DNA from: Planctomycetota bacterium
Lineage (GTDB): Bacteria; Planctomycetota; Phycisphaerae; Phycisphaerales; SM1A02
Assembly (NCBI GenBank): GCA_027622195.1
Contig: JAQBZO010000004.1
Span: 1 to 64,000 of the forward strand
DNA: 64,000 nucleotides
Direction: 5' to 3'
The notes beneath the pieces were generated by a model. It was given only the letters and a program-made list of their open reading frames with translations, was not told the DNA's origin and made no database searches. A program made the position numbers and the translations under genes. Shown piece after piece: positions 1-48,088 of this stretch (positions within the stretch are counted from its first letter, which is position 1; each line of letters starts with the position of its first letter).

Positions 1-205
1 CGGCCAGCGTTCATCCCAGCGATCCCGGAAGCCCCCACGAGGGGCGAGGGAAGGCGGTGAAAATCCGCCGCGGACGCGCCGCCGTAACGGGCAGAGGTTC
101 ATCCTCTCCACCTCGATCCATGTGCCACTGGAACTTCGACAAGTTCTGGGAAGGCGGACCGAGCGCCCGAAGCCGGAAGACCTGCCAATGGTTTTGGTCG
201 AGCCC
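1..205 (+). promoter_or_regulatory. Cobalamin (adenosylcobalamin-type) riboswitch
   Basis: Conserved core blocks of the cobalamin riboswitch occur in the correct order: a gggaa/ggcggtgaaaatccg block near 48-67, the cggac-gc-gccgtaacgg block at 71-90, gccactgg at 124-131, gggaaggcgg at 148-157, and the 3' gaagccggaagacctgcc block at 169-186. This is the classic core in which the gccactgg loop and the 3' block surround the corrin-binding pocket. The leader continues to the ATG at 247, with a GAGGA Shine-Dalgarno at 236-240, so control could be by sequestering that site. I see no clear intrinsic terminator between 190 and 246. The first bases may lie outside the window, so the 5' boundary is approximate. 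Confidence 0.88.
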
Positions 206-246
206 TCGCGTCACAGGGCAAGCACCGATCTGTTCGAGGATTCGGC

Positions 247-1146
247 ATGTCGCGCCGCATCACCACTTCCACTTTCGTTCTCGTCGCTGTGGCTTGTACC
301 ACCACCGCGAGCCCCGATTCACTTTTCGCGACGCTCGTTGTTGAGTATGTCGCGGGCGCCTCTCCTGCGGGAGGATTCACCCTCTCTCAATCAGCGCTCG
401 GAGAACCAACGCGCATGTCGGGCGGTGTCTTCGCTCCGTCTGTGGTGACTCCATTTGCCCCCGCATGGATGCCGAGCGATGTCGTGAGTATCGGCGCGGG
501 TGGATCGATCACCCTCGCATTCGACATTCCGATCATCGATGATCCATCTCACTTGTACGGAGTCGATGCCATTCTCTTTGGCAATTCATTCTTCACCGAC
601 ATGGCGCCGCCGAGTGGCGTGGCATCCACCTTGATTTCGGATGGAGGACTCGTCGATGTGTCAGAGGATGGAGTGAACTGGTTCACCATTCCAGGCGTGG
701 TGGCAGATGGACTCTGGCCAACGCTCGGATACCGCGATGTGGGTCCCTATGCCACGGTGGCTGGTTCGGTCATGACTGACTTCTCGGTGCCGATTGATCC
801 CTCACTCGAAGTGGCTGAATTCACGGGGCTTTCGTGGGATGAACGCGAAACGGTCTACGGCGCAAGTGGCGGTGGACGATCCATCGATCTCGCATCGGTC
901 GGACTCGCGCGCGCGAACTTCGTGCGCATCCGAGTACCGATCGGACATCCTTGGCATGTCGAAGTCGACGCCGTCGCGGTCATGTCCGTTGTCGTTGCGG
1001 GCGATCTCACGAGAGACGGTCTCGTCAACGGAGAGGACATCGCACAACTGCTCGGCGCATTCGGCAACGGCGCGGCGGGAGACCTCAACAATGATGGCGC
1101 CACCGACGGCACCGATCTCGCTCTGCTGCTCGGTGCATGGTCATGA
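247..1146 (+). CDS. Secreted protein with dockerin-like C-terminus, under B12 riboswitch control
   Basis: A 299-residue protein with an N-terminal signal peptide (about residues 1-22). The middle (about 30-245) is rich in beta strands and carries segments such as VVSIGAGGSITLAFD, VDAILFGNSFF and VDVSEDGVNWF. These resemble surface proteins encoded next to B12-uptake genes in other phyla; that resemblance is from memory and unproven. Residues about 252-299 hold two calcium-binding EF-hand-like loops (DLTRDGLVNGEDI and DLNNDGATDGTDL), the dockerin-like tail common in Phycisphaerae. The start has a GAGGA site 6 nt upstream. It is the first gene after the cobalamin riboswitch, so a role in cobalamin binding or uptake at the cell surface is an inference from context. 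Confidence 0.75.
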   Translation: MSRRITTSTFVLVAVACTTTASPDSLFATLVVEYVAGASPAGGFTLSQSALGEPTRMSGGVFAPSVVTPFAPAWMPSDVVSIGAGGSITLAFDIPIIDDPSHLYGVDAILFGNSFFTDMAPPSGVASTLISDGGLVDVSEDGVNWFTIPGVVADGLWPTLGYRDVGPYATVAGSVMTDFSVPIDPSLEVAEFTGLSWDERETVYGASGGGRSIDLASVGLARANFVRIRVPIGHPWHVEVDAVAVMSVVVAGDLTRDGLVNGEDIAQLLGAFGNGAAGDLNNDGATDGTDLALLLGAWS

Positions 1147-1928
1147 CTCGACGCGCCTTCACACTCGTCGAGATGCTCGTCGTGACCGCGATCACGGTGA
1201 CACTCTTGTCGCTGCTCGTCCCTGCGGTGAGTTCAGTGCGTGCATCGTCGCGCAGCACACAATGCCAGTCCCAACTCCGTTCACTCGCAGCGGGCGCCGC
1301 GCACTATGCGGCCACGCATCACGATTGGTTTCCCGCTGCACAACTCATGCTTCCTGCCGATGGCGGTGGATGGTGCACGATGTACTGGGACCAAGAAAAA
1401 CGAAGCGATGGATCATGGGGACCGGGCATCATTGCCCAGTTTCTTGACCACGATTTGCAATCGTTTCAATGTCCTTGTTGCTTCGGGGATCCACTCTTTG
1501 GCGAAGTCGTCACGGGGTACAACTACAACACGACCTTCGTCGGAACAGAGGGATATTTCCCAGCGCCAAACGGGAACGGCGGTTGGATTTCAGGATGGCA
1601 GAATGCGCGACTTGGCGTTTCTCCTGGGTCGATTCGGCGAACGAATGAATGTGCACTCTTCGGCGATGCTGGTTGGGCGGGCGGAACGAATCGTTTCATG
1701 CGCGCTCCTGGAAACAGCGTGGAAGGAGATCTCTCGATGGTGTACGCGGGTGGACAATCGTTTCGACATCTCGGTGGATCGAATGTGGCGTTCCTCGATG
1801 GACACTGTTCGACCGCACCAACTCCCTTTCGAGGCATCCATGCGACAGATGAGATCGCGAAGTCCATTCTCGATTTTCCGAAGAATGGTTTTCTGAGCGA
1901 CGACGACAGCGCGTACGACCCGCGATGA
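1143..1928 (+). CDS. Pseudopilin-like protein with H-x9-DG motif
   Basis: About 261 residues. The N-terminus (RRAFTLVEMLVVTAI) is a type IV pilin/type II secretion prepilin signal: cleavage before F, glutamate at mature position 5, then a hydrophobic helix. The C-terminal part carries FRHLGGSNVAFLDGH, the H-x9-DG motif of planctomycete pseudopilins. The ATG at 1143 overlaps the upstream stop (ATGA), indicating translational coupling; an in-frame ATG at 1137 is the alternative. It therefore belongs to the same B12-controlled operon as the dockerin-tailed protein. These proteins are expected to be processed by prepilin peptidase and to be membrane anchored or assembled into pseudopili; the individual function is unknown. 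Confidence 0.8.
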   Translation: MTRRAFTLVEMLVVTAITVTLLSLLVPAVSSVRASSRSTQCQSQLRSLAAGAAHYAATHHDWFPAAQLMLPADGGGWCTMYWDQEKRSDGSWGPGIIAQFLDHDLQSFQCPCCFGDPLFGEVVTGYNYNTTFVGTEGYFPAPNGNGGWISGWQNARLGVSPGSIRRTNECALFGDAGWAGGTNRFMRAPGNSVEGDLSMVYAGGQSFRHLGGSNVAFLDGHCSTAPTPFRGIHATDEIAKSILDFPKNGFLSDDDSAYDPR

Positions 1929-45850: not shown

Positions 45851-48088
45851 CTACAACGACCACGCGCCGAGGATGAGCGCGAGGTCTTGTCCGTCGGTGA
45901 CGCCGTTGCCGTCGACATCGCCAGCGGTTGAAACACCCCACGCAGCAAGGAGGAGTCCGAGGTCGGCGCCATTGACGATGCTGTCACCGTTGAGATCGCC
46001 GACCACCGTCGTGCAGCCCGACCGAGAGACGCGAAAGTCATCGATCGCGGCTTCGACGAGACTCCCCGCTCCGAGGTCTCGAGCGACGAAACGAACTCGA
46101 GATGCAGTCGGCGCAGGTTGGCTCGTCAACACATCGCCCACTCGAAACGAGAAGTTCGCCCACGCGTTGGTGCTTTGCAAGATGTCGAGAGCAACCACCC
46201 ATCCACCCTGAGCGTTTTCGATTTCAACGACCATCGAATCGAGTCCTGGACTGCTGCCGAGGTTGTTACTCCACCATCCATAGAACGAAACAATCGTGTC
46301 GGGATCAGACGAGTTGAATGGAGCGGTGACGAGCGTCGTGATGCCCCCATCGAGATCGGATGTGCCCGCGCCTCCGCTCACATGCTGGCCGGTGATCCAA
46401 CACTTCGTTCCGATGGGCGAATGATCTGAGCCTGTTTGTGCAGTCGTTGCGACGGGGGTGGCGAGGACCCAGACTCCAGCTGTCGCCGTATCACCTGCGA
46501 TTCCTGCAGTCCATCCATCGACTGCTTCGCACTCGGTTTGAGCAATGAGTTCGATCTGTTGCGCGGTGGATGAGAACACCGAGGCCGTGCCGAGAGGAAG
46601 TCGAACTTCGGCGGTCGGCATCGATGCCGTCAAAAACCAATCGATCGTGGATCCGCACGAGACCGAGGGAAGCGTTGCACTCCACTGCCCGTTTCCAAGG
46701 GATGTAGCGAGTTGCGTCTGAAATGGAACGCCGTTCACCGAAGTATGCAGAATCGGCGGCGATGTGGACGAACCGACACTCTCGAAGAGTGCGAATGCAA
46801 TCGATGTCAACGTGTTCGATTCGATGATGCTGGGCGCAGCGGATGCAAGTTCAATCGTGGCGGGATTCGTTTGAAACCACTGCGCCATGGCGAGGAACGC
46901 GGCGTAGTTTTCCTCGGCGTTGGGAATGATTTCGCTTACGGGCATAATGAATCCGTAGGCTCCTGTGTCGCGCACTTCAATCGTCCAAGCGCATGCCTCT
47001 GCCGTTTCGTGAAGCCAGTCAACAGCACTTCCGTCAGCCACATACAGGGTCGGCGCAACGGGTCCTGCTGTGTACACCATGCCGTGCGCCGACTCAATGG
47101 CCACGTCAATCGCTGCGGTGCTCTGCTGATACACGGCATTATTCGCGGGCAATTGACTCGCCGTCCAACCATACGGCCACAGAATCAATTGGCTATAAGA
47201 ATGAAAGTCAATCGCCGCGACGATTTCAGGATGCAGCAAAATGAAATCGCGCATCGCTTGCGTTTCGGGTTCTGACCATGGACTCACGCCGCGGTACGTT
47301 TCAGAATTCGTCGCGCCGCTGGAACCTGGCCCTCCCCACATGAATCCCCAGTTGCGATTGAGGTCGACGCCGAATGTGCCGTCGCCATTGTCGCGGCGGT
47401 TTTTTCGCCAGAGTCGATTGGTGGTCCAACTGTGTTCGTATCCATCACCATTCACGACGGGAATCACGAACACATCAAAGGAGGAAAGGATTGACGTAAC
47501 GACGGGGTCAGCACTCTGCCAACCTGAAATCAATCGATCAGCAATCCACATCGTGACCGTCGGCGTTGCCCATTCTCTTGCATGCTGACATCCATCGACA
47601 AACAAGGCTGGTCGAATGGACCCGGCCGGCGCAGTCGAGATGCGCAGTCCGCGAATGTCGCGTCCCTCGAGAGTCAAGCCGATTGAAAACTCAGAGGCGA
47701 TTCCTTGTGACCCTTGCGCCAGCTCTGCGAGTCGTTGGTGAATGAGTGGCAGTGGGCGAAAGTCGTCGAAGTAATTCACCCCCGCGATCCCACCGTCCTG
47801 TTGCGCGAGTCTCGCCGCCTCTTCTGCAATGAGTGCTTCGAGATCGTCGATGAGAACGCAATAGTCGACCCCCGCGCCATCGAGCAATTGCTTTCCATCA
47901 TCGTCGACGACGATGTCGACTGGACCAATTCCGACGCTGTGGCTCCAGATATCTTTTGCAGTATGCATGACCACTCGAAGATCACGCGCTGATGCTGGAA
48001 CAGTCCGCACGACCGAATCGGCGACCGTCGCCGAGGTAATGAGGAGCATTGACATGAATGCGCAAGAGAGCAGAACAGTGGGCGGCAT
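45851..48088 (-). CDS. Secreted M14 zinc carboxypeptidase with dockerin-like tail
   Basis: About 745 residues from the ATG at 48088. Signal peptide about 1-22. The M14A catalytic set is present: zinc ligands in DGCQHAREW (His and Glu), the substrate-binding DLNRNW, the third zinc His in AIDFHSYSQL, and the catalytic Glu in WTIEVRDTG. A long beta-rich region follows, then the dockerin-like repeat DLNGDSIVNGADLG ... DVDGNGVTDGQDLA. It removes C-terminal residues from proteins outside the cell. A TACATT element is 6 nt before ATG and overlaps a divergent one. Confidence 0.9.
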   Translation of the reverse strand: MPPTVLLSCAFMSMLLITSATVADSVVRTVPASARDLRVVMHTAKDIWSHSVGIGPVDIVVDDDGKQLLDGAGVDYCVLIDDLEALIAEEAARLAQQDGGIAGVNYFDDFRPLPLIHQRLAELAQGSQGIASEFSIGLTLEGRDIRGLRISTAPAGSIRPALFVDGCQHAREWATPTVTMWIADRLISGWQSADPVVTSILSSFDVFVIPVVNGDGYEHSWTTNRLWRKNRRDNGDGTFGVDLNRNWGFMWGGPGSSGATNSETYRGVSPWSEPETQAMRDFILLHPEIVAAIDFHSYSQLILWPYGWTASQLPANNAVYQQSTAAIDVAIESAHGMVYTAGPVAPTLYVADGSAVDWLHETAEACAWTIEVRDTGAYGFIMPVSEIIPNAEENYAAFLAMAQWFQTNPATIELASAAPSIIESNTLTSIAFALFESVGSSTSPPILHTSVNGVPFQTQLATSLGNGQWSATLPSVSCGSTIDWFLTASMPTAEVRLPLGTASVFSSTAQQIELIAQTECEAVDGWTAGIAGDTATAGVWVLATPVATTAQTGSDHSPIGTKCWITGQHVSGGAGTSDLDGGITTLVTAPFNSSDPDTIVSFYGWWSNNLGSSPGLDSMVVEIENAQGGWVVALDILQSTNAWANFSFRVGDVLTSQPAPTASRVRFVARDLGAGSLVEAAIDDFRVSRSGCTTVVGDLNGDSIVNGADLGLLLAAWGVSTAGDVDGNGVTDGQDLALILGAWSL

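Follow-up and report, generated by a model that had tools for sequence, protein, structure and literature searches.

The riboswitch and the genes behind it

The first 1,928 nucleotides of the DNA analysed here carry, all on the forward strand, a cobalamin riboswitch, a gene for an exported protein (P1) and a gene for a type IV pseudopilin (P2). The whole stretch (hereafter the window) is 64,000 nt long and covers positions 1 to 64,000 of contig JAQBZO010000004.1, assembly GCA_027622195.1, from a Planctomycetota bacterium whose draft genome (G000) amounts to 1.79 Mb and is 88% complete. The window starts at the contig end (G000:C26:1), and the upstream neighbour on the P1 side lies outside the readable DNA. 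The related genomes used for comparison come from uncultured Planctomycetota of waters and sediments, for the most part Phycisphaerales.

The riboswitch aptamer, at 12–203, is full-length, matching the RF00174 model from 1 to 189 with 77.0 bits (cmscan, E 3.1e-17; gathering score 31.5); it contains the B12 box GCCACTG at 124–130 and is the single RF00174 match in its genome. Judging from its RNA family, it would turn the operon on at low B12; in Bacteroides thetaiotaomicron, the promoters of genes controlled by such riboswitches are repressed by B12 (PMC12751083). A conserved L13 or kissing-loop regulatory hairpin after the aptamer occurs at chance level (2/23, with 1.5 expected), and the folding energy of the leader itself is unremarkable (z −0.2).

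The P1 gene (247–1146) is an open reading frame with orthologues in related genomes, and encodes 299 amino acids, in which a signal peptide is followed by a domain resembling the B12-binding BtuH domain (residues 27–247, at 325–987 of the window) and by a dockerin or EF-hand-like C-terminal tail (991–1140). The AlphaFold2 model of the protein has a pLDDT of 92.6. Pfam, NCBIfam and PDB sequence searches with P1 detect the dockerin tail alone, and this weakly (18 bits against a Pfam cut-off of 22.9, and likewise below threshold in NCBIfam); Dockerin_1 is matched by 33 of the 39 P1 homologues, and the modelled tail superposes on the solved dockerin 2y3n_B with 1.3 Å over 54 residues. Dockerin-type matches number 32 in the genome, and such tails (about 30 in a small genome, e.g., at 45857–46012 on the reverse strand of the window) may be a common sorting or anchoring tail. 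The P1 leader (247–297) also contains the string VAVAC, which fits a lipobox pattern; relatives do not share its cysteine, and lipid anchoring is therefore no general feature of the family.

The reading frame of P2 opens at 1137 or 1143 and ends at 1928 (263 or 261 aa), the start at 1143 being the most likely given the ATGA overlap with P1 and the standard prepilin leader MTRRA/FTLVEM. The protein scores above the cut-offs of the NCBIfam prepilin motif TIGR02532 (17.6 against 16.3) and H-X9-DG model TIGR04294 (20.3 against 19), and of Pfam PF07596, DUF1559 (25.8 against 23.3), and below that of PF07963 (18.4 against 21.2). Its model (pLDDT 90.3) consists of a long N-terminal helix (10–60) and a beta head, for which Foldseek gives no significant fold match (best E 0.47, to pilins). 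In an alignment of 31 homologues, the glutamate of the prepilin motif is invariant and the last residues, NGFLSDDDxAYDPR, are nearly so; in the window this motif reads NGFLSDDDSAYDPR (1884–1925). In each family genome that has P1, the best P2 match sits in the P1 locus, with E values from 1e-31 to 1e-114 in the relatives, whilst the next-best match in the own genome reaches 1e-11. By these sequence comparisons, P2 is a type IV pseudopilin dedicated to the P1 locus, with one orthologue per genome. It shares the prepilin leader, the H-X9-DG motif and the long N-terminal helix with other planctomycete pseudopilins of the DUF1559 type, and differs from them in its single orthologue per genome, its link to a B12 riboswitch and its own C-terminal motif. 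A preliminary description of this DNA had noted a clear B12 riboswitch core, two downstream genes overlapping by ATGA, a secreted beta-rich protein with a dockerin-like tail and an H-x9-DG pseudopilin, all of which are borne out by these results.

Further downstream, we read genes for MutL, a phosphatase-like protein and NAD synthetase in the window, and for MoeA, MoaD, an alpha/beta hydrolase and a BFD-like protein after P2 in relatives. B12 transport genes were considered as neighbours of P1 and P2 and rejected, since the genes found after P2, in the window and in relatives alike, are not B12 genes. In many relatives (e.g., L045, L047, L052 and L058), the molybdopterin genes MoeA and MoaD and the alpha/beta hydrolase gene are inserted between P2 and mutL.

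P1 as a relative of BtuH

Among the PDB chains compared with the P1 model by VIA-align, the best two rows are the two solved BtuH domains that bind B12, those of BtuH2 (7biz_B, Z 13.4) and of BtuG1, also called BtuGH (8blw_B, Z 12.7), both at 24–25% identity; Foldseek places BtuG1 first and BtuH2 second. The next VIA-align row is PAPP-A (Z 10.5), followed by CBM32/F5-8C modules (Z about 9–10). Sequence comparison gives no direct link: neither P1 nor a profile of its body finds a BtuH match among PDB sequences at E up to 1 (the profile, by hmmsearch, finds no PDB sequence at all), a body profile enlarged with two distant members finds chance matches only, and hhalign of the P1 profile with the two Bacteroides BtuH domains by themselves is weak (Prob 13). 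Homology between P1 and BtuH rests, therefore, on intermediates and structure. One such intermediate, L071, lies behind a cobalamin riboswitch in another family of the order; in phmmer searches of the PDB it finds BtuG1 (8blw, E 4e-18) and BtuH2 (7biz, E 6.7e-11), and in a search of the own genome it finds P1 with E 2e-7, the match covering the body but not the dockerin. A gene at L234 behaves similarly towards BtuG1 (E 3e-20) and BtuH2 (E 2e-12). In addition, a profile of 37 P1 orthologues aligns to the BtuH-like set with Prob 99.5 in hhalign, as opposed to at most 0.7 in 20 column shuffles. By bridging homologues, profiles and modelled structure, then, the P1 domain is related to the B12-binding BtuH domain of Bacteroides. 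The preliminary description had pointed to a likeness of the first protein to surface proteins encoded in B12-uptake loci, which was well founded, its fragment ILFGNSFF (with the FGN motif) being the most telling part. Of the BtuG/BtuH-like folds that it proposed for comparison, BtuH2 and the BtuH domain of BtuG1 are indeed the closest, and the BtuG propeller is not.

BtuH2 binds B12 in its BtuH domain, where Asn399 contacts the phosphate of the vitamin (PMC8941943); by sequence numbering, this residue is the asparagine of QGNAF. In our alignments it corresponds to Asn113 of P1, in the FGN motif (codon at 583–585, numbering checked), which is invariant in 39 homologues. It is also the only one of the BtuH2 contacts conserved among P1 homologues: Gln333 is not conserved, Trp577 has a counterpart in the own genus only, and the segment with His476, Tyr510 and Trp511 is missing or unrecognisable in P1 and cannot be aligned. 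The binding loops of another group of B12 binders, the DUF4465 proteins, also vary widely, so the non-conserved contacts lower confidence in B12 binding by P1 and not in its homology to BtuH. P1 is a putative B12 binder.

P1 thus resembles BtuH2 (BT_1956) and the BtuH domain of BtuG1 (BT_1490) of B. thetaiotaomicron in its homologous discoidin-like domain, in the asparagine at the B12-phosphate position, in being exported and in having its gene in a B12-riboswitch locus (theirs lie in B12-riboswitch or B12-transport loci). It differs from them in its dockerin tail, where they have PKD or propeller domains together with a lipid anchor, in most of the contact residues, and in its partner, which is a pseudopilin and not a BtuB/TonB receptor. 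The DUF4465 binders include BtuJ1 and BtuJ2, and also a protein from the planctomycete Mucisphaera calidilacus (PMC12751083, PMC13398666). They are, as P1 would be, exported B12-scavenging jelly-roll proteins, riboswitch-regulated in B. thetaiotaomicron; by contrast with P1, the genes reported next to theirs are for TonB and ABC transport and not for pseudopilins. We rejected membership of P1 in this group (DUF4465, BtuJ), since the Pfam family has no match in any of the 39 P1 homologues at E up to 1; that DUF4465 is missing among the structural matches carries no weight in either direction.

Conservation in the family and the order

Orthologues of P1 occur in 34 of the 37 family genomes, the three others being 72–80% complete, and also elsewhere in the order, in further families. 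P1 and P2 are syntenic in the same proportion of family genomes (34/37), and P2 follows P1 in distant families as well; across 36 loci measured, the gap between the two genes ranges from −7 to 350 nt (median 15.5). A riboswitch lies upstream of P1 in 32 of the 34 family genomes with the pair, a count that includes G028, where it was missed by the model and recognised in the leader by eye; most of these riboswitches are at or above the gathering score, and one has 25.5 bits. Two genomes, G002 (of the same genus) and G023, showed no riboswitch ahead of P1. In G002 (L033) the pair is kept and a divergent upstream gene abuts P1. The preliminary description had named non-conservation of the pair with the riboswitch as grounds against its reading; the survey of riboswitch neighbours finds the order riboswitch, binder, pseudopilin conserved.

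Outside the family, riboswitches of the order likewise lead into genes for an exported protein, BtuH-like or not, and a pseudopilin. The arrangement in family f4 is mostly riboswitch, exported protein, BtuH-like protein, pseudopilin, and G058 and G052 have the same succession; G054 has riboswitch, BtuH-like protein and pseudopilin, and in some f2 genomes a PQQ-type propeller with a dockerin stands between P1 and a P2-like pseudopilin. For the exported gene that comes before the BtuH-like gene in f4 (L234), sequence searches of the PDB give no relative, and the only motif is PEP-CTERM; that it is BtuG-like is our guess. PEP-CTERM-like tails instead of dockerins are found in many of the order's exported proteins encoded downstream of these riboswitches. 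Among the riboswitches inspected, only one precedes a TonB receptor (G048).

A further exported family, with a GYRWDG-like motif and about 175–260 aa, follows cobalamin riboswitches in several Phycisphaerae (L224, L226, L231, L239, L242, L245, L221 and L048), the riboswitches there not being followed by P1. A pseudopilin lies alongside in L224 and L242, and elsewhere these genes sometimes stand alone. Several of the proteins end in a PEP-CTERM-like tail. They belong to no Pfam or NCBIfam family and are candidates for a new B12-binding family. In L048 (G009:C2:19844-22280) the cobalamin riboswitches are in tandem, one before P1 and P2 and the second just past P2, before the GYRWDG-type gene. 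In L225 (G056) and L237 (G049), the riboswitch-controlled genes encode exported proteins with FAVFENGF-like motifs, and a pseudopilin follows; these exported proteins appear to be remotely related to the BtuH-like set.

Probable cobamide acquisition and its rivals

The own genome encodes three proteins with B12-binding domains, including a MetH-sized one of 1186 aa, and a FecCD permease with an ABC ATPase as candidate B12 transporter, for which no BtuC model exceeds its cut-off. It also has one secretin, several PilB/GspE-like ATPases and two ATPases of the PilT family that exceed the curated cut-off. Searches with PF00593 and PF07715, in which positive controls were matched, detect no TonB-dependent receptor in this 88% complete genome, and they agree in finding none in 24 of the 34 genomes with P1 (the own genome and 23 others), whilst ten family genomes with P1 do have such receptors. 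The genome thus appears to use B12 and to have its own pilus-type machinery, yet to be without the classical receptor. Cobamides are too large for ordinary porins, whose size limit is about 600 Da (PMC5394234), so import must follow a different route in bacteria that lack a TonB receptor. The locus and BtuB-TonB import would both be riboswitch-controlled answers to B12 shortage, and they differ in that the majority of the genomes with P1 have no such receptor detected.

We favour, with a probability of roughly two in three, the interpretation that the riboswitch, P1 and P2 form a cobamide-acquisition operon made of a BtuH-type surface binder and its dedicated pseudopilin. When B12 is scarce, the riboswitch would permit expression of the operon; P1 would be exported and its BtuH-type domain would capture cobamides outside the cell or at its surface, with the dockerin tail tethering it to a partner. 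P2 would be processed by prepilin peptidase and built into a type II/IV pilus-like fibre, which may present loaded P1, or guide it through the outer membrane, to an inner-membrane BtuCD-type ABC transporter. A bolder version, in which a type IV pilus or pseudopilus with the BtuH-type binder itself moves B12 across the outer membrane and replaces BtuB-TonB in this order, is speculative and we consider it rather unlikely. It does fit existing planctomycete puzzles, as pili-like fibres of these bacteria bind dextran and macromolecules reach their periplasm by an unknown route (PMC5394234).

Alternatively, P1 could bind B12 whilst P2 merely exports or anchors it via type II secretion, the vitamin crossing the outer membrane elsewhere. 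We take this as a possible explanation, if an unlikely one. DUF1559/H-X9-DG pseudopilins are numerous in these genomes, the single secretin and the several GspE/PilB ATPases are at hand, and the second riboswitch copies of family f1 (L221, L226, L239 and L245) precede exported proteins with no pseudopilin found adjoining. What such a helper role leaves unexplained is why the B12 binder alone should have a dedicated pseudopilin, when most of the genome's dockerin-type proteins have no known partner of this kind. Low B12 could also induce a pilus-like fibre with a lectin-like tip of discoidin/CBM32-like fold, by which the cell attaches to algae or particles that supply the vitamin. Attachment is a frequent role of pili and dockerins, and carbohydrate-binding CBM32/F5-8C modules do share the P1 fold; their Z scores, however, and that of PAPP-A before them, stay clearly behind those of the BtuH domains, the asparagine facing the B12 phosphate is invariant, and the bridging homologues match BtuH by sequence, which makes adhesion improbable. 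That the riboswitch simply drifted beside ordinary exported proteins, in genomes where both dockerins and pseudopilins are common, is refuted by the order-wide conservation and the orthology of P1 and P2, and has next to no probability left, given that the about 13–19 pseudopilin-like matches in 1.8 Mb would put one in the 3 kb downstream of it about 2% of the time.

Returning to the proposed cobamide-acquisition operon, the preliminary description had called it a previously undescribed surface device. This holds in part: BtuH-type genes in B12-riboswitch loci are known in Bacteroides, and it is the dedicated pseudopilin that is new. The combination of dedicated pseudopilin, dockerin tail and lack of a detected TonB receptor is new as well, and we found no earlier description in the open literature of a B12-riboswitch binder-pseudopilin pairing, or of a cobalamin riboswitch with a prepilin.

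BtuH-type binders have been reported in Bacteroidetes and three Firmicutes (PMC8941943). P1, as a divergent member of the BtuH family from a phylum not reported for BtuH in the papers examined, extends them beyond these groups. Conserved order-wide together with its B12 switch, in bacteria that are common in aquatic habitats, the operon is a concrete candidate for B12 import that is not TonB-dependent, and it supplies a testable vitamin cargo for the unexplained macromolecule uptake of planctomycetes. Control of a pseudopilin by B12, not described in the literature searched, is directly testable through it. Should pilus-driven import turn out to be true, it would be vitamin import powered by a pilus machine, which would be categorically new.
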